The notes below the pieces were generated by a model. That model searched no databases, was not told the DNA's origin, and worked only from the letters and a program-made list of their open reading frames with translations. A program made the translations under genes and the position numbers. Positions 3,969 through 13,497 of a stretch of DNA of 64,000 nucleotides are shown piece after piece. Source of the stretch: Sphingobacteriales bacterium. GTDB taxonomy: Bacteria; Bacteroidota; Bacteroidia; Chitinophagales; CAIOSU01. The stretch covers positions 1-64,000 of the forward strand of contig JAIXOI010000044.1 in NCBI GenBank assembly GCA_027486795.1, read 5' to 3'. Position 1 is the stretch's first letter. Every line of letters starts with the position of its first letter.

Positions 3969-5135
3969 ATGAGGATAGAAGAAGTAACAAACCATAGGTT
4001 AGCTAACGAGTTTTTGGAAGTACCAACCTTGATATATAAGCACGACCGGAATTACATAAGGCCTCTTGACGACGATATTAAAAAAGTATTCGACAAGGAG
4101 AAAAACAAGTATTTTAAGCACGGTATCCTTTGCCGCTGGGTGCTATTTGATGACAAAGAAAATGCCATAGGTAGGGTAGCGGCATTTATTAACGATAGTA
4201 CCGCCTACAAATTTGACCAGCCAACTGGTGGTATGGGCTTTTTTGAGTGTATCAATAACCAAGATGCTGCAAATGTGCTACTCAATACCTGTAAGAATTG
4301 GTTAACCGCAAATGGCATGGAAGCCATGGATGGCCCGATTAACTTTGGCGAACGGAATAATTGGTGGGGTTTGCTTATTGAAGGGTTTGACCCACCTAGC
4401 TACGGCATGAACTACCATATGCCCTATTACCGAACCCTGCTTGAAAACTATGGCTTTCAGCTGTATTTCAACCAACTTACTTACGGTTTGGGGGTAAATG
4501 ACGAGAGGCCAGAAATTTATTACACCAAAAGCAAAAAACTCTTGGCCGAAGACCCTAACTACCATTTTAAACACATCAACTTTAAAGAGGCGGAGAAGTT
4601 TACCGAAGATTTTCGCACTATATACAACAAGGCATTTGTAAACAGCCGCGAAGGCCTAAAGGAAATGAGCAACGAGCAAGCCCAAAACCTGATGCACGCC
4701 ATGAAGCCCATTCTAGTTGACGACCTAGTTTGGTTTGGCTATTATAAAGAAGACCCCATTGCCATTTTCTTTATGATGCCCGAGCTAAATGGGTATTTTA
4801 AGCACGTAAACGGCAAGATGAACTTACTGGGTAAGCTTAAGTTTTTATACCATAAGTATACCGGCTCAGTTCGAAAAATGTACGGTATCATGTTTGGTGT
4901 AGTCCTCGAACACCAAGGAAAAGGTGTTGAAGGGGGCATTATTATGGCCGCCAATGCAGTGGTGCAGCCCAAAAAGCGCTGGGACGACATGGAGCTTACC
5001 TGGATTGGCGATTTCAACCCCAAAATGATGAAGGTAGCCGAGAACCTTGGTGCCGTGGTAGTGAAAAAACATGCTACTTTTAGATATCTGTTTGACCGCA
5101 CAAAGCCCTTTGAGCGTTACCCTATGATAGATTGA
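3969..5135 (+). CDS. Acetyltransferase-like (GNAT fold) protein, function unknown
   Basis: A soluble protein of 388 residues from the ATG at 3969 (MRIEEVTNHR). The frame stays open back to 3888, but that 27-residue extension is low-complexity and unlike protein. Conserved-looking features are RRW-type early strands, MDGPINFGERNNWWGLLIEGFDPP in the middle (about 118-141) and a C-terminal half with the alternating pattern of a GNAT domain, including GVVLEHQGKGVEGGII (about 310-325), which resembles the acetyl-CoA loop. I recall this as a conserved Bacteroidota protein of unknown substrate. It is followed 48 bp later by an SGNH hydrolase with its own promoter box, so the pair need not be an operon. 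Confidence 0.8.
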   Translation: MRIEEVTNHRLANEFLEVPTLIYKHDRNYIRPLDDDIKKVFDKEKNKYFKHGILCRWVLFDDKENAIGRVAAFINDSTAYKFDQPTGGMGFFECINNQDAANVLLNTCKNWLTANGMEAMDGPINFGERNNWWGLLIEGFDPPSYGMNYHMPYYRTLLENYGFQLYFNQLTYGLGVNDERPEIYYTKSKKLLAEDPNYHFKHINFKEAEKFTEDFRTIYNKAFVNSREGLKEMSNEQAQNLMHAMKPILVDDLVWFGYYKEDPIAIFFMMPELNGYFKHVNGKMNLLGKLKFLYHKYTGSVRKMYGIMFGVVLEHQGKGVEGGIIMAANAVVQPKKRWDDMELTWIGDFNPKMMKVAENLGAVVVKKHATFRYLFDRTKPFERYPMID

Positions 5136-5170
5136 GGGGCAATATTCTTAGTGCATTAAATATCCTTGCC

Positions 5171-5178
5171 TATATTTG
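5171..5178 (+). promoter_or_regulatory. -7 box giving a probably leaderless mRNA
   Basis: TATATTTG matches the Bacteroidota -7 consensus TAnnTTTG. Only five bases separate it from the ATG at 5184, so transcription would begin at or next to the start codon. At the -33 spacing there is only TTAG, so the upstream half is weak. Confidence 0.5.
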
Positions 5179-5183
5179 AGCAT

Positions 5184-6200
5184 ATGGCAACTCAAGCAAT
5201 GCAACGCAGTGGCAAGCAACTTCAATTTAGGTTAATAGCCCTTTTGCTCGGTTTGCTGTTGGGTTTGGTTTTAGCTACCCTGGCATTAAGGCATTATAGA
5301 GCGAAGCAAGCCCCGCATTTTTTCGGTAATTATGTTATCGAAGGGTTTCAGCCCCATCCATACCTAGGCTATGCTCCTAAGCCATCTAGCACCCTCAACT
5401 CGTGCAAAATGCTTGAACTTGATACTATTTATTGTGCGCAATATCTAGTGGACAAAAGCGGCAGGCGGCAAATGCCAATGTCTGATTCGGCTAGTGCGCA
5501 TCTAATGTTCTTTGGCTGCTCGTATACTTATGGCGAAGGGGTGAACAACACCGAAACATTTACTCACCTATTGGCGCATATATTGCCCAATTACCAAGTT
5601 TACAACTTTGCTTATAGTGGCTACGGCCCGCAGCAAACATTGGCCAACCTTGAGTTTGGCCACATTGCCAGCGAAGTATCTCAACCGCATGGCTATTGCG
5701 TTTACATGCTGCTACCAGAGCACATTTCGCGGGCAGCGGGTGCGCCTTATTACATTCAAGGTTGGGGTACTAGCTCGCCGCATTATGCTATGCAGGCCGA
5801 TTCGCTAGTTTATTTTCCCAATCATAAAGCATGGCGCCCCACCTATGTAGCCTTTCAGCGCTTTTTAGGTTGGTGTGGCTTAGGTAGTTTTGTTTATCCC
5901 CCGCCTAAAACATACACCCACCAAGAGGTTGATTTAACCGTAGCGATACTTAAAGAAGCACAAGCCCGATATTTGGCCCTATACCCTGAAGGTCATTTTG
6001 TTGTAGCGCTACCACCTGCAATAAGTAACGAAGAGAACTTTGTTCAAATAGCCGATGCATTAACCAAGCAAGGCGTTTCAATTTGGGACTTTCACTCAGC
6101 CTTTCATTTAAACTCTCCGTGGGCCATCTATGGCGATGGGCACTTGAGCTCCAATGGCCATCAAGAAGTGGCGAAATTGTTATCAAACTACATTCAATAA
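5184..6200 (+). CDS. SGNH/GDSL-like hydrolase with N-terminal membrane anchor
   Basis: A 338-residue protein starting at the ATG at 5184. A TTG at 5166 in the same frame is rejected because the -7 promoter box lies between the two. One hydrophobic helix (about 15-37) should anchor it or act as an uncleaved signal. The SGNH nucleophile block reads FFGCSYTYGEG (about 107-117), and the C-terminal catalytic block is GDGHLSSNGHQ (about 319-329), giving the Asp and His. GCSYTYG in place of GDS is common in the Bacteroidota branch annotated as SGNH or GDSL-like lipase. The substrate is unknown, probably an ester on an envelope or exported glycan. No obvious operon partner. Confidence 0.75.
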   Translation: MATQAMQRSGKQLQFRLIALLLGLLLGLVLATLALRHYRAKQAPHFFGNYVIEGFQPHPYLGYAPKPSSTLNSCKMLELDTIYCAQYLVDKSGRRQMPMSDSASAHLMFFGCSYTYGEGVNNTETFTHLLAHILPNYQVYNFAYSGYGPQQTLANLEFGHIASEVSQPHGYCVYMLLPEHISRAAGAPYYIQGWGTSSPHYAMQADSLVYFPNHKAWRPTYVAFQRFLGWCGLGSFVYPPPKTYTHQEVDLTVAILKEAQARYLALYPEGHFVVALPPAISNEENFVQIADALTKQGVSIWDFHSAFHLNSPWAIYGDGHLSSNGHQEVAKLLSNYIQ

Positions 6201-6377
6201 GGTCATTTAAATTGTTGAAGTTTTAGCGTGCTAAGCAATGTTAAATGCGCTCCCGTACCCTGTTTAGGGTAACCATTGTCATAGAATTGTCAAGAAAGAG
6301 TTTGAGTGCGCTTCGCCATGAACTAAAGGTCGAATATTGCAGTCTTATTCGTGAACATTACCAAAAACAACTTACTC

Positions 6378-7667
6378 ATGTTTCGCAATTGTATTTTTAT
6401 ACTATTCTGTTCAGTGATGCCATTTTTGGCGTCAGTATCAGTTTTTGCCCAAGGCGCTCCTGTGGCCGACACGGTTACCCTTGGCGCAGGCTACGTAAAT
6501 CAGGTTTATTACAGTATCGTTTCGGGCCAAAAAACAACGGCCCCAGTAAGTGAGTGGGATGTTGCTTTCCAAGCCAACGGCATTACTTACGGTGTATGGG
6601 TAAACAGGACTGCTGGCTACACGGCCCATTTGGTGCCAAACCTTGATGCCAGCGATTGGGGCACTGCTGTTGATACTACTGGCTTTGCTAGCTGGCCAAC
6701 CCTTGAAAACGGAACAAGCAGTTGGGCCGATGGCGCATTCAACAAAAACGCAACCAGCCAGTTCGATGTGGGTTGGGGTCTTTACACAGGCCCTCCGGCA
6801 CATGAAGTAAATGGCGATTCTATTTATTTGGTCAAATATGCCGATGGCTCCTTTAAACAGCTTTTAATCGAGAATTTGAATGTGAACAGGTATGTGTTCC
6901 GTTTTGCCGACCTTGATGGCACCAACGAAGTGGTTGATTCTGTTCTGAAAGACAACAATCGAAATTTCTCTTACTACAGTTTGAAAAATGCAGTTGAAAT
7001 TGACCGCGAACCTTCAAACCAAGACTGGGACCTTTGGTTTACTAATAGCCTAACAGCAAATGTAGTGGTAGGCCCCCCAGGCACTCCGCTAGGCACAGCC
7101 TCTGGTGCGGTGTACATTAACCGCGGTATTCAATCTGTTCGCATATTTGGTGCTCCTGTCGATTCGGCTGATTATTTGACAGCCACGTTTGACAGCACCA
7201 TTTATAAAATTGGCGATACCTACCGTGTTCGCGTTTCAAACCCTCCCCCAGGCGGTTGGGTAGTAGTTGATAGCAATGTTTACTTTATCAAAGCAAAAGA
7301 CACTGAGATATACAAGTTACTGTTTACTAGCTATGAAGGACAAAGCACGGGTAAAATCACTTTCGAAAAGACCCAAATGACCAACAATGCCACCGGAGTA
7401 AATGATATTGCCAGCACTAATACCGTTGTAATTTTGTACCCTAACCCTGCCAAAGAGCAATTGAACGTGGTATTGGATGCAAACCAAGCTGGTATGCATA
7501 ATATAACCGTAACCGATTTGGCAGGTAAAGTGTTATACAACCAAACTATTGGGGTAAATGGGTTGCAAAACTTAACCATACCTGTATCCAATTTCGCAAA
7601 TGGTCTATATTTGGTTTCAGTTGAGGCCAATGGTAACCGCAGTGTTCAAAAATTTGTAAAACAATAA
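6378..7667 (+). CDS. HmuY-like protein with T9SS C-terminal sorting domain
   Basis: A secreted protein of 429 residues. The ATG at 6378 gives an immediate signal peptide (MFRNCIFILFCSVMPFLA, ending SVFAQ); a GTG at 6351 in frame is less likely. The body carries the HmuY-type repeated motif WDVAFQANG followed by GVWVN, and later QDWDLWFTNSL. The last about 75 residues (LYPNPAKEQLNVVL to QKFVKQ) form a type A T9SS sorting domain, implying export and surface attachment or release. HmuY binds haem and passes it to the receptor HmuR. Its stop codon overlaps the receptor start (TAATG). Unusual: HmuY is normally a lipoprotein, and a lipoprotein paralogue follows the receptor. Confidence 0.8.
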   Translation: MFRNCIFILFCSVMPFLASVSVFAQGAPVADTVTLGAGYVNQVYYSIVSGQKTTAPVSEWDVAFQANGITYGVWVNRTAGYTAHLVPNLDASDWGTAVDTTGFASWPTLENGTSSWADGAFNKNATSQFDVGWGLYTGPPAHEVNGDSIYLVKYADGSFKQLLIENLNVNRYVFRFADLDGTNEVVDSVLKDNNRNFSYYSLKNAVEIDREPSNQDWDLWFTNSLTANVVVGPPGTPLGTASGAVYINRGIQSVRIFGAPVDSADYLTATFDSTIYKIGDTYRVRVSNPPPGGWVVVDSNVYFIKAKDTEIYKLLFTSYEGQSTGKITFEKTQMTNNATGVNDIASTNTVVILYPNPAKEQLNVVLDANQAGMHNITVTDLAGKVLYNQTIGVNGLQNLTIPVSNFANGLYLVSVEANGNRSVQKFVKQ

Positions 7668-9919
7668 TGCCTAATAAAGCTCTAGCTACTTTAGCGTTCA
7701 TCATACTTAGTATCCTTGGCTTGGCGGCCCAGCAGCGAACCATTACGGTGGTAAACGATGCAGATGGCAGCCCAGCTGGGGATGCTTATGTTTTGGTAAC
7801 CGCTTTAAACGGGGAGGGCAAAAAATATTCGGTGCTTACTGATGCCAGTGGGGTAGCACCCATAAAATACTCTGGAAGCGTTTACATCGAAGTTTCGCAT
7901 GCGAGCTTTGTTCCTGTTACTGATACTTTGAAAAACGGCGAAAGTAAATTGTATCATTTGTTGCCACTGAATATACAAGTGCCCGAGATGGTGGTTACTG
8001 GTCAGTTTACCCCCGACGACCCTAGGCGGTCGGTTTACTCTGTAAAGGTAATTGACCTAAAAACCATTGAACGCCGCGGTGCCACCAATTTGAAAGAACT
8101 GTTGGGGCAAGAATTGAATATGCGCATTACCCAAGATAATGTGCTGGGCAGCGGACTAAGTTTGCAAGGTCTTAGTGGCGAGCAAGTGAAATATATGGTT
8201 GACGGTGTACCGATTTTGGGCCGTTTAAATGGCGATATCGACATTAGCCAGATTAACTTAAACGATGTGGCCCGCATTGAAGTTATAGAAGGCCCTGTAT
8301 CGGTTCAGTATGGAACCAATGCCTTGGGTGGTGTTATCAATATCATTACCAAAACCGAACAAGCAGATAAAATAAATACCTCGTTAAACAGTTATTACGA
8401 GAGCAGGGGCACCTACAATTTCGATGTATTGGCAGGGTTTAGGGTAAAAAAACATTTTTTTGGGGTAAGTGGTGGCCGTTGGTTTTTTGATGGGTACGAC
8501 GAAGACAAAACCTTGAGAGATGTATCATGGAATCCTAAGGAACAATACTTTGGCAACATAAAATATGGCTATGCCTTTAAGCGCCTGCGCCTAATGTATA
8601 GCAGCAACTTCTTTAATGAAAAGGTTACAAACCGTGGTGAGCCCCGCGCGCCATTCAATATAACCGCATTCGACGATTATTATTATACCTTCCGCAATGC
8701 CAACTCCTTAACCCTGAGTGGCGAAATATTGAAAAATCATTACCTCAACCAAGTTTTTGCCTATTCTTTCTTCCGCCGCAAAAAGAACACCCTTTACAGA
8801 GACTTAGTTGAGTTAACGGAGGTCCCTGCCGAAGATCCTTCATTGCACGATACTACAACATTCAATGCTTTTTTAGCCAGGGGTTTTATAAGCCGAAACA
8901 AAACGGACAAGAAACTCAACTATCAAATTGGTTATGACATAAACCTTGAAAGTGCCAGCGGCAAAAGGATAAAGGATAACAAGCAATTTATTGGCGACTA
9001 TGCCGCATTTGGAAGCATAAGTTATGTGCCTTTTACTTGGTTAACTATACAGCCAGGCATGCGTTACTCATACAACACGGCTTACAAAGCCCCAGTTACG
9101 CCATCGGTGCATTTTAAGATAAACCCAGCTGAGAATGTTATTATTAGGTTGTCGTATGCCCGAGGATTCAGAGCACCTTCCATCAAAGAACTCTATTTTG
9201 ATTTCTTTGATATCAACCATAATATTTATGGCAATCTTGATTTGAAGGCCGAATATAGCAACAACCTTAGTGCGCAGTTGAGCTATTCCAAATTGGTTAA
9301 AGAAAACCACTTGCTGAAATTTACCCCCACCCTCTTTTTCAACGACATTAAGAACGATATAGAGTTGATACAGGATTACAGCGGCGATGGCGGCTCAGGC
9401 AATGTATTACCTTACACCTACGGCAACCTGAGCAGCAACCGTATCGTAGGTTTCAATTTTACAACCAGTTACCAGTTAAAAGAGAATTTTACCATAGGCT
9501 TATCAACGGCCATGAACGGAAGGAAATACCAGTTTAATGATACGCTTAGTTCAGATGGGTTTAGGTTTAGTCCTGAGTTTTCGGCCAATGCCAATTATGT
9601 AATACCTAAGATTAAACTGCGTTTAACGGTATACTATAAGTACAATGGCCAGTTTATAACCCCATATATTGAGTCGGATGGTTCGGTGGCCGAGCAAATT
9701 ATCGAGCCATATGGCCTACTCGATTTTACTATGGGCCGCAGTTTTTGGAAACAACGCATAACCATAGCGGTAGGCGCCAAAAACCTCTTAGATGTAAACC
9801 AGGTAAACACCAACGGCGGCAGCGGTGGTGGTGTCCATAGCACCGGCAGTGCCAGTGTACCTATGGCATGGGGGCGCAGCTATTTTGTGTCGTTAAAACT
9901 TCAATTCTCAAAGTCGTAA
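7667..9919 (+). CDS. TonB-dependent haem receptor, HmuR-like
   Basis: A 750-residue outer-membrane receptor. A signal peptide (about 1-22) is followed by a short carboxypeptidase-regulatory-like domain (about 24-105), a plug domain (about 115-225, with RRGATNLKELLG and VEGPVSVQYGTNALGGVINIIT) and a 22-strand barrel ending in an aromatic-rich strand (FVSLKLQFSKS). In the barrel, FRAP (about 499) is followed by HNIYGNLDLKAEYS. An FRAP box, a histidine and an NPNL-like box in that order is the signature of haem/haemoprotein receptors such as HmuR and HemR. It overlaps the upstream HmuY-like gene by one base and is 4 bp from the downstream one. Energy would come from TonB-ExbBD encoded elsewhere. 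Confidence 0.87.
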   Translation: MPNKALATLAFIILSILGLAAQQRTITVVNDADGSPAGDAYVLVTALNGEGKKYSVLTDASGVAPIKYSGSVYIEVSHASFVPVTDTLKNGESKLYHLLPLNIQVPEMVVTGQFTPDDPRRSVYSVKVIDLKTIERRGATNLKELLGQELNMRITQDNVLGSGLSLQGLSGEQVKYMVDGVPILGRLNGDIDISQINLNDVARIEVIEGPVSVQYGTNALGGVINIITKTEQADKINTSLNSYYESRGTYNFDVLAGFRVKKHFFGVSGGRWFFDGYDEDKTLRDVSWNPKEQYFGNIKYGYAFKRLRLMYSSNFFNEKVTNRGEPRAPFNITAFDDYYYTFRNANSLTLSGEILKNHYLNQVFAYSFFRRKKNTLYRDLVELTEVPAEDPSLHDTTTFNAFLARGFISRNKTDKKLNYQIGYDINLESASGKRIKDNKQFIGDYAAFGSISYVPFTWLTIQPGMRYSYNTAYKAPVTPSVHFKINPAENVIIRLSYARGFRAPSIKELYFDFFDINHNIYGNLDLKAEYSNNLSAQLSYSKLVKENHLLKFTPTLFFNDIKNDIELIQDYSGDGGSGNVLPYTYGNLSSNRIVGFNFTTSYQLKENFTIGLSTAMNGRKYQFNDTLSSDGFRFSPEFSANANYVIPKIKLRLTVYYKYNGQFITPYIESDGSVAEQIIEPYGLLDFTMGRSFWKQRITIAVGAKNLLDVNQVNTNGGSGGGVHSTGSASVPMAWGRSYFVSLKLQFSKS

Positions 9920-9923
9920 GTAT

Positions 9924-10943
9924 ATGCAATACTATTTAGGTTGTTTAGTGGTATTGATGGCTTTGATAACTTCGTGCGTGAAGGATGAAAAGCCGGTTGA
10001 CAAGCCCTCTATTGTTGAAACCGTGCAGATACCCATGGGCGCTGAATACGAAGATCAATTTTATTTTGACTTGGAAAGTAACCAGACCGTTAAGCGGGTT
10101 TCTCGCTTCGATTGGGATTTGGCATTTGAATCTACTGTCGATGGGTACTTAGTTTTTATCAATGGCTACAAGTTTATGTTTGCCTACAACACTGGCAAAA
10201 CAAAGTTTGATAGCACCTATACCTACAGTGCCCTGCTTAGGCGCTGGGATGAGCCCGATGGAGATTTGGGCAAAACCGCATTTGGCGAATGGGGCGATGT
10301 TACATCGCCAGGAACCGTGATAGGCAAAGGCAATATCTATTTAGTTGACAGAGGCTACAATGTAAACTTGGATACCTTTGGCCTACGAAAAGTAATGGTA
10401 AATGGTTTGGAAAACGGTAACTACAGCGTAAGCTTTGGCGCATTAAACAGCGCTACCCCCACAACCGTGGTTATACCAAAAGTAGAGGGCTACAACAAAG
10501 TGTTTCTGAGTTTTGACAATGGCGGTGAGATAGTGAGTATTGAACCGTTAAAAGCAAATTGGGACCTTAACTTTACACGCTATACCCATGTGTTTTATGG
10601 TCCGGTACCTGGGTTTCCGCCAACCGACACGCTACCTTACCAGGTTGTTGGGGTATTGGGCAATTACCTAAATGGCGTTGAAGTAGCGAAGCTTGATTCG
10701 GCAAATTTTACTGCCTTTACTTTGGCCGATGCTGCTAGTGTAACCTTTTCGGGCGAACAGGACGCATTGGGGTTCGATTGGAAGAACTTTACCCTCAGCG
10801 ATGAAAACTATGAGGTGGAGTCGCAAAAATTGTACATCATAAAAAGCGTTGAAGGCAATTATTACAAGTTGCGGTTTGTTGAGTTTTACAACAATGCAGG
10901 CACCAAGGGCTATCCTACATTCGAGGTGCAACTATTGCAATAA
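9924..10943 (+). CDS. HmuY-like haem-binding lipoprotein
   Basis: A lipoprotein of 339 residues. The signal peptide MQYYLGCLVVLMALITSC has its lipobox cysteine at 18, followed by an acidic linker (VKDEKPVDKPS). The mature part repeats the HmuY pattern: RFDWDLAFESTVDGYLVFING near the start and KANWDLNFTRYTHVFYG in the second half. It is 4 bp behind the HmuR-like receptor and last in the operon. The equivalent of the upstream HmuY-like protein but anchored by lipid instead of T9SS. Haem binding is inferred from family and context; a different porphyrin or metal chelate is possible. Confidence 0.8.
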   Translation: MQYYLGCLVVLMALITSCVKDEKPVDKPSIVETVQIPMGAEYEDQFYFDLESNQTVKRVSRFDWDLAFESTVDGYLVFINGYKFMFAYNTGKTKFDSTYTYSALLRRWDEPDGDLGKTAFGEWGDVTSPGTVIGKGNIYLVDRGYNVNLDTFGLRKVMVNGLENGNYSVSFGALNSATPTTVVIPKVEGYNKVFLSFDNGGEIVSIEPLKANWDLNFTRYTHVFYGPVPGFPPTDTLPYQVVGVLGNYLNGVEVAKLDSANFTAFTLADAASVTFSGEQDALGFDWKNFTLSDENYEVESQKLYIIKSVEGNYYKLRFVEFYNNAGTKGYPTFEVQLLQ

Positions 10944-10949
10944 GGGGCT

Positions 10950-11672
10950 TTACATTCTAAAAAGGCCATACTTAAGTATACAGTAAATGGCCCTAAACCC
11001 ATCCTTCCAACTTATTTTCTTGCCTTCGGCATAAGTGCGGCCGTAGTATGATATGCCCACTTCGTATATACGCACATTGGGCAAGCGCGCTATTTTAGCT
11101 GTTACTTCAGGTTCAAAACCGAAGCGTTTTTCTTTTAGTTTCAGGCCCTTCAACAAATCGCTGCGGAATAGCTTATAGCAGGTTTCCATATCAGTTAAGT
11201 TCAAGTCGGTAAACATATTCGACATGAAAGTGAGCATTTTGTTTCCTATGCTATGCCAAAAAAACAAAATGCGGTGCGGTTTACCGCCCATAAACCTTGA
11301 GCCATAAACCACATCGGCAAAACCTGAAATAATAGGTTTTAGCAGCAAGTTATATTCTTCAGGGTCATACTCCAAGTCGGCATCTTGAATAATAATATAA
11401 TCGCCAGTAGCCTCCTTAATACCGCGGTGCAGCGCCGCCCCCTTTCCTTGGTTTTCCCCCTGTTCATAAAGCCTAATGGGTATATCGGGATTTGCTTGTA
11501 TGTAGCTCTTAATAGCATCAAGGGTATTGTCTTTTGATCCGTCATCTACAATAACCACTTCCTTTTTAAAGCCACCCGCTAGCACAACGGATTTTACTTT
11601 GTCCAAAATATGGTGGATGGTTGGGCCTTCGTTGTAGGCAGGAATAACAATAGATAAGGTAAGTGTTTTCAT
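10950..11672 (-). CDS. Family 2 glycosyltransferase, DPM1-like
   Basis: A 240-residue enzyme with the GT-A fold. [10 protein letters not shown] (7-16) and [12 protein letters not shown] (39-50) bind the nucleotide sugar, and [12 protein letters not shown] (about 95-106) carries the DxD-type metal site. Length and motifs fit polyprenyl-phosphate mannose or glucose synthases without C-terminal membrane helices, which load a sugar onto a lipid carrier at the cytoplasmic face. The gene directly upstream (11695-13497, same strand, 22 bp away) is a membrane protein of the kind that uses such lipid-linked sugars, so the two may act in one step of surface glycosylation. It converges with the haem operon with only 6 bp between. 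Confidence 0.9.
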
Positions 11673-11694
11673 AGCTCGCGCGGCTAAGATATTA

Positions 11695-13497
11695 CTATTT
11701 TGCTTTTAATAGTTCTAATTTAATAGTGTCAACATATAAAGTCTGACCGGGATTCTCAAAATAGAGAGCAATACTGTCAGCATCGGCTCTTTTATAAGTA
11801 AGAGGCATTTCTGCCTCTACCAGATACCAAGTGTTTGGCTCAAATAGCCATTGTAGTCGGGTATTGCTAAAGTACCGCTCTTTTCCATCCTTGTAAAACC
11901 GCATACCCAAGCGCGCCATTTTCCATTCATCCCATTCCATTTGGGTATAGTAAATATTTGCCGACACCCGAACCCAATCATCGTTGGTATGAGCAGGCAT
12001 TGGGACAGCTTTTAACAAAAAGTCAGTATTGTCTTTACCCGTTACAAACAACCTTTTATCGCCAAAGCCAGCAACAGTATCAGTAGGTATTACGGTGGTT
12101 AAAATATTTTTATATGCCAACTTCTCATCATCTGGAGCTTCAAACGGCAGGTCAAGGTATTTCCTCAACTCTTTACCACGCTTTTGTTTGATAAAAACCT
12201 CTACCCAATACTTTTGGCTAAGGCCTTCCGGATGCATAGCACCATTAAAAATGTGGCATTCGTAGGTTTGCACCAAGTTAAGCCAAATAAAAGCACTTAC
12301 AATAGATAGCAGAGCAAGCCACCTCAACTTTCGGGCCAATGCCCATTGGCAAAATGCTGCAAACGGTATGAGCCATACTGCATAAGACTGCACCATAGCC
12401 CTAGAGCCAAAACTGCCGCCATACCACCAAATATCCCAACTGAAAGTGATGTAGATATTTAGGATGTTGAAAATTGCAACTGCCCAAAACAACTGGCGTT
12501 GGTTAAGGTATAGAGGCACTAAGCCGGCAAGAGCAAAAGCCATAATCGGCGTGTAAACTAACCACCCTTTTTTAAAGCTAAATAGCCCATCAAACAAATG
12601 AGGGCGCAGAAAGCTAAAGCCTTGGTCTTCGTAGCTATATACTAGCCAATGGCCACTATAGTACTTCCAATAGATAAGTTGTAGGCTACCCACTGCAACC
12701 ATAATCAATACGGCAGTTAGTATTTGCCAATGATGCTGCATGATAAGTTGCCATTTGCGCTGCAGGGTTTGTTTGTTGTATACGCCCCATATAATTGGTA
12801 GAAGCACACAAATTACCTCAGTCGGGCGAGTGAGGCTCGCTAAACCACAAAGCAGCCCAATCCCAGCTGCTGCGAGCATCGTAGGGTTTTGATGCCACCG
12901 TATGGTAAGGTAAAGCAGCGCGGCATACAAAGTAAATAGGTGGTTGTGGGTCATGGCCCCATCAAACGAAACATAATTGAGGTAATTAGTAGCCACCACA
13001 AGCAATATAAGGCTCATGGCTACGGCCTTATCACTAAAGTAGCGCAGCAGTATGTTACGCATCAATGCCAAGCCAGCCAAAGCATAGCATATAGCGCCAA
13101 AAAAGACGGATGCTTGGTATGGATATGACAATCCGTCGGCAGGGTAAGAGGTGAGTTTGGCCCACAAATGCCCCATAAAGAAAAAGGGCAAATAAAAAAT
13201 ACTCTGACCCATAGAGTATTTCATAATGTAGTTGCCCGTGTCTACAGGAAAAGCATGATAATTGAAAGGTGCTGGCTGGTATTGAGCCATTAAACCATCT
13301 AAAAAGTGCAGGCCACCCAAATCATTATAAATAAATAACGCAGGCAAGTATAGGTAGTACCCAAAAACATCCCAACTCAACACCGCCTCGGTACCTGTAA
13401 AAGTCCATTTTGGATACAGGAAAGCAGCAATGATTAATGACACTGCAGCGACAAGCCAAGCTAATAGCGAAATAGGATTGGTTGACTTTTTTAACAA
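11695..13497 (-). CDS. Polytopic membrane glycosyltransferase-like protein (GT-C)
   Basis: A 600-residue integral membrane protein with about 11 hydrophobic segments over residues 1-400 and a soluble C-terminal domain (about 430-600) ending in a beta-rich, jelly-roll-like stretch. The first external loop has [21 protein letters not shown], comparable to the catalytic loop of GT-C enzymes. The start is a TTG (13495-13497), since no ATG is available before the first helix. It precedes a DPM1-like transferase by 22 bp on the same strand, which supports use of a polyprenyl-phosphate sugar. Acceptor unknown. Confidence 0.75.

Follow-up and report, generated by a model that had tools for sequence, protein, structure and literature searches.

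Three adjacent genes of a Sphingobacteriales bacterium raise the question why one TonB-dependent receptor would be accompanied by two HmuY-like proteins with different export signals, and which compound such a set would take up. The genes lie in a 64-kb window, i.e. the whole stretch of DNA that was analysed, and encode a T9SS-sorted double HmuY protein (T9Y), an HmuR-like TonB-dependent receptor of the haem type and a double HmuY lipoprotein (LPY) (Table 1). Reading frames and sequence place them nearly gapless on the plus strand. An initial annotation had described the trio as a T9SS-exported HmuY-like protein, a receptor with FRAP, His and NLDL boxes and an HmuY-like lipoprotein; profiles, motifs and the lipobox bear out the identity and position of all three. 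The close spacing that it reported was found as well: the receptor ATG overlaps the T9Y stop by 1 base and the LPY start lies 4 bases past the receptor stop. It is fairly probable that the trio forms an operon for haem salvage and represents a variant of the HmuY/HmuR system: T9Y exported by the T9SS would capture haem, LPY would act at the receptor and the TonB receptor would perform import.

Table 1 Features of the trio locus (positions in the window)
Feature	Position	Strand	Basis
Upstream element, candidate regulator site	6257..6292	+	inverted repeat ACCCT-AGGGT, then direct repeat ATTGTCA-N4-ATTGTCA
T9Y (T9SS-sorted double HmuY protein, 429 aa)	6378..7667	+	Pfam HmuY and Por_Secre_tail, TIGR04183, model pLDDT 89.4
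T9Y HmuY repeat 1	6456..6941	+	aligned by hhalign to repeat 2 (94% probability) and to single-domain HmuYs (127 columns)
T9Y HmuY repeat 2	6942..7385	+	hhalign with LPY repeat 2, E 7e-35
T9Y T9SS type A C-terminal sorting domain	7434..7658	+	Por_Secre_tail, TIGR04183, VIA-align Z 11.5 to mirolase CTD 8qb1 and PorU 6za2
TonB-dependent haem-type receptor (HmuR-like, 750 aa)	7667..9919	+	Pfam Plug and beta-barrel; TIGR01785 best NCBIfam match, below cut-off
Receptor box: FRAP (501-504), His518, N-L-D-L (523-526; N-x-x-L)	9167..9244	+	alignment of 74 receptors
LPY (lipoprotein double HmuY, 339 aa)	9924..10943	+	Pfam HmuY 65.7 bits, model pLDDT 94.6, VIA-align Z 15.7 to HmuY 3h8t
LPY lipobox Cys18	9975..9977	+	lipobox LITSC; Cys invariant in 70/70 rows; VKDE next
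LPY HmuY repeat 1	10005..10460	+	hhalign; conservation
LPY HmuY repeat 2	10461..10940	+	aligned by hhalign to single-domain HmuYs (138 columns, 94.6% probability)

Organization of the locus

T9Y starts at ATG 6378 and stops at 7667; an alternative upstream GTG at 6351 gives a protein of 438 aa. In the window the trio is flanked by a weakly GDSL-lipase-like protein and a glycosyltransferase, and neither hmuS (CobN-like) nor hmuTUV is present among the neighbouring genes on both sides. The candidate regulator site upstream of T9Y is conserved across the aligned upstream regions of four congeners, and its pattern matches once in the window versus 0.14 matches expected. No riboswitch or other Rfam family matched positions 5000-12000, and a B12-type regulation of the trio was rejected on this ground. 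Scans for sigma-70 promoters (13 found, 9.8 expected) and terminators (3 found, 6.0 expected) were uninformative. The genome to which the window belongs (3.9 Mb, 97.6 % complete) is matched by the HmuY profile at the trio locus only. T9Y used as query matched 39 places in this genome, nearly always with the sorting tail alone at the other places, indicating that T9SS cargo is plentiful in this organism.

Export signals and folds of the two HmuY proteins

T9Y starts with a signal peptide whose last residues are AQ and scores 34.3 bits against Pfam HmuY (PF14064), only 7 bits above the cut-off of 27. Its tail scores 53.4 bits against Por_Secre_tail (cut-off 27) and 43.6 bits against TIGR04183 (cut-off 23) and also displays the fold of a CTD, which identifies it as a type A sorting domain by profile as well as by fold. 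The structure model (pTM 0.73) superimposes on PinO (6r2h) with a VIA-align Z of 14.1, an rmsd of 3.1 and 135 aligned residues, and on HmuY with a Z of 13.5 over a superposition spanning residues 25 to 336. T9Y is thus a member of the HmuY family by profile cut-off and by fold, and the HmuY fold on which the initial annotation depended is indeed seen in the model of the T9SS protein. The modelled fold of the tail agrees with a predicted delivery of T9Y by the T9SS to the cell surface.

The match of LPY to Pfam HmuY lies well above the cut-off of 27, at 65.7 bits. Its model (pTM 0.87) superimposes on HmuY 3h8t with an rmsd of 2.4 over 140 aligned residues that span residues 28 to 339, and LPY is likewise a family member by both profile and fold. 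The lipobox Cys of LPY stands behind a signal peptide, and acidic residues just after this Cys were found in 48/70 LPY relatives versus 5/65 at the corresponding position of T9Y relatives. The VKDE stretch behind Cys18 resembles the lipoprotein export signal of Bacteroidota. Lipobox and acidic residues agree in suggesting that LPY is held on the cell surface. Foldseek searches with the whole models gave low TM-scores, and the VIA alignments were used instead.

Two HmuY domains in each protein

Both proteins consist of two HmuY repeats. Repeat 1 aligns with repeat 2 of the same protein in T9Y (hhalign probability 94 %, E 9e-8) and in LPY (92 %, E 8e-7). Like repeats are closer between the proteins, with E 2e-22 for the two first repeats and E 7e-35 for the two second repeats, which indicates that the domain duplication is older than the split of T9Y and LPY. 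Furthermore, single-domain HmuYs were compared with the repeats in a set of two sequences from relatives; two further loci, L012 and L030, yielded no reading frame through the filter and were left out. These sequences gave end-to-end alignments, of moderate probability, with T9Y repeat 1 over 127 columns (75 %) and with LPY repeat 2 over 138 columns (94.6 %), while their matches to LPY repeat 1 and T9Y repeat 2 are weak.

A single HmuY domain interrupted by a large insert was considered, as it is the two ends of each protein that are covered by the Pfam stretches and by the structural superposition. This reading was rejected in view of the alignment of repeat 1 with repeat 2 and by the end-to-end alignment of single-domain HmuYs with single repeats. 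Instead, we infer for each protein an interlocked tandem, since the 140 aligned residues are too few to fill the span from 28 to 339 in LPY. One classical HmuY fold would be built jointly by the beginning of repeat 1 and the end of repeat 2, and the other halves of the two repeats would presumably lie between these parts; only the first and last aligned residues and the Pfam stretches were used in this reading. The HmuY family would then extend from single-domain lipoproteins to tandem proteins with two delivery routes.

Receptor and candidate ligand residues

The best NCBIfam match of the receptor, to the TonB-hemin model TIGR01785, reaches 132.1 bits where the cut-off is 316.85. The His of the box, His518, stands between FRAP and N-x-x-L and is kept in 73/74 receptors. 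A FRAP/N-x-x-L motif with a His has been described for haem receptors (accessible part of PMC9331221).

The initial annotation had proposed structure prediction as a check for the HmuY fold and haem ligands in the two proteins. The fold was found in both. P. gingivalis HmuY has two axial ligands, His134 and His166. In a profile alignment that covers the second of them, His166, so numbered from the chain length of 3h8t, faces a column of the LPY profile that is neither His nor Met. Haem binding must therefore use other residues. In T9Y, His142 (repeat 1, codon 6801-6803) is His in 60/65 aligned rows. In LPY, Met85 (repeat 1, codon 10176-10178) is Met in 58/70 rows, His222 (repeat 2, codon 10587-10589) is His in 51/70 and Met38 is Met in 47/70. 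Judged by conservation, no His or Met residues of the mature proteins other than T9Y His142 and LPY Met85 and His222 stand out strongly enough to be considered as ligand candidates.

Spread and gene order among relatives

An HmuY match was found in 31/60 relatives, many with the same trio. A contig scan with the LPY alignment confirmed 384 relatives, from which 80 loci were kept; these loci are not independent, as L127/L140/L141 and L149/L154 share coordinates and are probably near-identical, L075 and L135 belong to one genome and several of the 80 repeat genomes of the relatives' set. The receptor is present in 77/80 loci and T9Y in 68/80, 67 of them with a detected tail. All three genes occur in the order T9Y-receptor-LPY on one strand in 67/80 loci, and the arrangement is thus not due to chance. 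In eight of the 12 loci lacking T9Y the contig breaks off close to the receptor or LPY, while T9Y is missing from L093, L104, L143 and L152 despite more than 4 kb of upstream sequence. Besides Chitinophagales, Flavobacteriales, Bacteroidales and Taibaiella, the titles of the loci include Kapaibacterium and Ignavibacteria. The loci closest to that of the window come from MAGs, among them 'Loclat_bin-14753' (L075), with an LPY 96 % identical to that of the window, and a pond MAG (L077); in Taibaiella the trio is found in named strains (L083, L092). At a second locus of a congener (G002; L042, L135), LPY comes immediately after T9Y without an intervening receptor gene.

The initial annotation had set the trio against a usual operon with one HmuY, implying that the arrangement is rare. 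This view proved too narrow: rarity is ruled out by the 67/80 loci, and 70/75 genomes of the class that match the double-HmuY profile have at least two matches. In this branch of the family, HmuY-like proteins normally come in pairs.

The distances between the genes differ. LPY starts -26 to +57 bases from the receptor stop in 68/77 loci. The gap between T9Y and the receptor is at most 162 bases in 38/67 loci, 435 and 514 bases in two and 1.1-4.4 kb in 27. The tight coupling of the receptor and LPY genes suggests that LPY is the close partner of the receptor and T9Y a forward collector. In SusCD and BtuBG complexes a lipoprotein forms the lid of the receptor. LPY might be such a lid rather than a free hemophore, with T9Y as the sole hemophore; this would fit the coupling in 68/77 loci and the invariant lipobox (70/70) with acidic residues behind the Cys (48/70), but it is LPY that matches the HmuY profile better (65.7 versus 34.3 bits for T9Y), and we regard the lid as an unlikely role. 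It is also doubtful that T9Y and LPY are parallel hemophores for different sources or of different affinities, each delivering straight to the receptor without a relay. If both were parallel, one would expect them to be lost singly more often, whereas they are kept together in 67/80 loci, which points to both being needed. Consistent with parallel action are the differing positions of the conserved His and Met residues (T9Y His142; LPY Met85, His222) and the two genomes in which T9Y lies on another contig than the receptor-LPY pair, i.e. G013 (L048/L049), which also has a full trio (L050), and G044 (L055/L056).

Accompanying genes and probable ligand

Several loci carry further genes. The genes hmuT, hmuU, hmuV and hemS accompany the trio in 9/80 loci, and in the sister genus G005 hmuTUV-hemS is located between T9Y and the receptor. 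Loci with hmuTUV and hemS at that place or beside the trio (L102, L114, L129, L145, L092, L108; also L137, L094, L143, L045) form a fuller haem-import cluster than that of the window. A lipoprotein resembling CbiX/ferrochelatase-type chelatases was found in 15/80 loci, in most cases accompanied by a membrane protein of the PepSY_TM or FMN_bind/Fer4_5 type; in L078, L079, L082, L084, L121, L133 and others it is encoded between T9Y and the receptor. Possibly this lipoprotein acts as a haem de-chelatase without being related to HmuS. The combination of a chelatase and an electron-carrying membrane protein is reminiscent of the B. thetaiotaomicron haem de-chelatase HmuS (accessible part of PMC12583661). 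DUF6607 and DUF6686 proteins, to which no function is assigned, stand beside the trio in 9/80 and 10/80 loci, respectively, and may belong to haem handling.

As the hmuTUV/hemS and chelatase sets handle haem, tetrapyrroles or iron, haem is the likely ligand of the trio. That the ligand would instead be another tetrapyrrole or an iron chelate (cobalamin, porphyrin, siderophore) is very improbable. The receptor does reach 93 bits against TIGR01779, the model for B12 receptors, which is below the cut-off, and the CbiX-type chelatases of 15/80 loci are relatives of cobalt and iron chelatases, but the match to the model for haem receptors is stronger (132 bits), hemS occurs in 9/80 loci, the region of the trio is devoid of Rfam matches and the system is associated with lost haem synthesis, as described below.

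Association with the loss of haem synthesis

Neither ferrochelatase (PF00762) nor HemB (PF00490) was matched in the window genome or its four congeners, and no HemS was found in the window genome. The haem-copper oxidase profile (PF00115) has two matches in the window genome, and this oxidase is kept by the four congeners. The absence of two genes is no proof of haem auxotrophy. Nevertheless, with haem-copper oxidases present and both synthesis enzymes absent, the window organism probably takes up haem as a cofactor as well as a source of iron. Congener G003, which lacks both synthesis genes, has no PF14064 match.

Among 60 relatives read by hand, ferrochelatase is missing in 23/31 genomes with HmuY versus 11/29 without. 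The survey was extended to the class with 197 genomes, each at least 90 % complete, of which 75 match the double-HmuY profile and 128 have ferrochelatase. The system is present in 50/69 genomes without ferrochelatase versus 25/128 with the enzyme (odds ratio 10.8, Fisher p 6e-13, a p value inflated by kinship), and in 50/73 genomes without HemB versus 25/124 with HemB. When 65 families were classified by majority, 13 had the system and no ferrochelatase, 6 had both, 7 had neither and 39 had ferrochelatase only (p 6e-5). In a test that treated each family as a stratum, the odds ratio was 4.8 (CMH p 0.034), and the association is weak within families. Ferrochelatase is kept in 25/75 system-positive genomes. 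Conversely, 19 genomes without ferrochelatase, and without HemB as well, lack the system and 16/19 of these have no HmuY match at all, indicating that other haem routes exist. Three genomes (G006, G037, G049) have HemB and no ferrochelatase match; in these, the pathway may have a different final step or be undergoing loss.

Comparison with known systems

The trio resembles the HmuY/HmuR system of P. gingivalis (hmuYRSTUV) in the HmuY fold (Z 15.7 for LPY, 13.5 for T9Y), the haem-type TonB receptor and the adjacency of the genes. HmuY of P. gingivalis, however, is a one-domain lipoprotein of 216 residues (3h8t numbering), whereas the locus studied here encodes two paralogues of two domains each, one of them exported via the T9SS; furthermore, His166 is not conserved and the window trio has no adjoining hmuSTUV. 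The other comparisons draw on the accessible parts of the papers cited. Flavobacterium psychrophilum has an iron-regulated receptor, HfpR, and an HmuY-family haem-binding protein, HfpY; HfpY was reported to bind haem and its operon to respond to iron. In that account one HmuY-like protein is reported, encoded behind the receptor and a DoxX gene, and the FRAP/NxxL motifs of HfpR are said to be only partly conserved (PMC9331221). Tenacibaculum maritimum has a tandem HmuR-HmuY pair (PMC5561996; PMC10288586).

A precedent for a T9SS-exported HmuY is C6N29_01035 of Flavobacterium columnare, a T9SS-secreted protein with an HmuY domain and Por_Secre_tail, although the table of the accessible text has no paired lipoprotein or receptor under heme uptake. 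Deletion of this T9SS-secreted HmuY left growth in low-iron medium like that of the wild type, which counts against the haem-salvage reading (PMC9618737). In the HmuY locus PIOMA14_I_1196 of Prevotella intermedia, an iron-regulated hmuY adjoins a gene for a protein with a T9SS type A sorting domain, with expression raised 116- and 104-fold; in the accessible text this T9SS protein is not termed HmuY-like and no receptor is named at the locus (PMC10434189). No earlier description of a paired double-domain HmuY operon was found among the open-licence papers searched. The wide spread of the trio, the double-domain nature of its HmuY proteins, the hmuTUV/hemS and chelatase neighbours and the lack of two haem-synthesis enzymes all go beyond the initial annotation.

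Proposed function and significance

In the haem-salvage operon that we favour, T9Y would be a two-domain hemophore that is exported by the T9SS to the cell surface or the medium and captures haem there. Its paralogue LPY, a two-domain lipoprotein, would be held in the outer membrane and docked at the receptor, where it would take haem from T9Y in a putative transfer, or acquire it directly, and feed the receptor barrel. The receptor would then move haem across the outer membrane with TonB energy, via its FRAP/His/N-x-x-L box. We tentatively suggest, as a possibility that falls somewhat short of an even chance, that in free-living respiring Bacteroidota lacking haem synthesis a main means of haem acquisition is such a two-stage hemophore, made of two double-HmuY proteins of the interlocked kind, of which the first is sent out via the T9SS to gather scarce haem and the second is fixed at the receptor.

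Haem auxotrophy has been reported to be common in uncultured bacteria, and according to the accessible part of the same source a haem receptor was not found in 60 % of the genomes of natural-habitat auxotrophs and uptake is nearly unstudied (PMC11139205). If the suggestion is true, the two-stage hemophore would explain the haem supply of natural-habitat auxotrophs, in which known haem receptors were mostly not found. The trio is a concrete and widespread candidate for such haem uptake that can be found with a simple profile, and its presence predicts for uncultured Bacteroidota whether haem has to be supplied in the medium.
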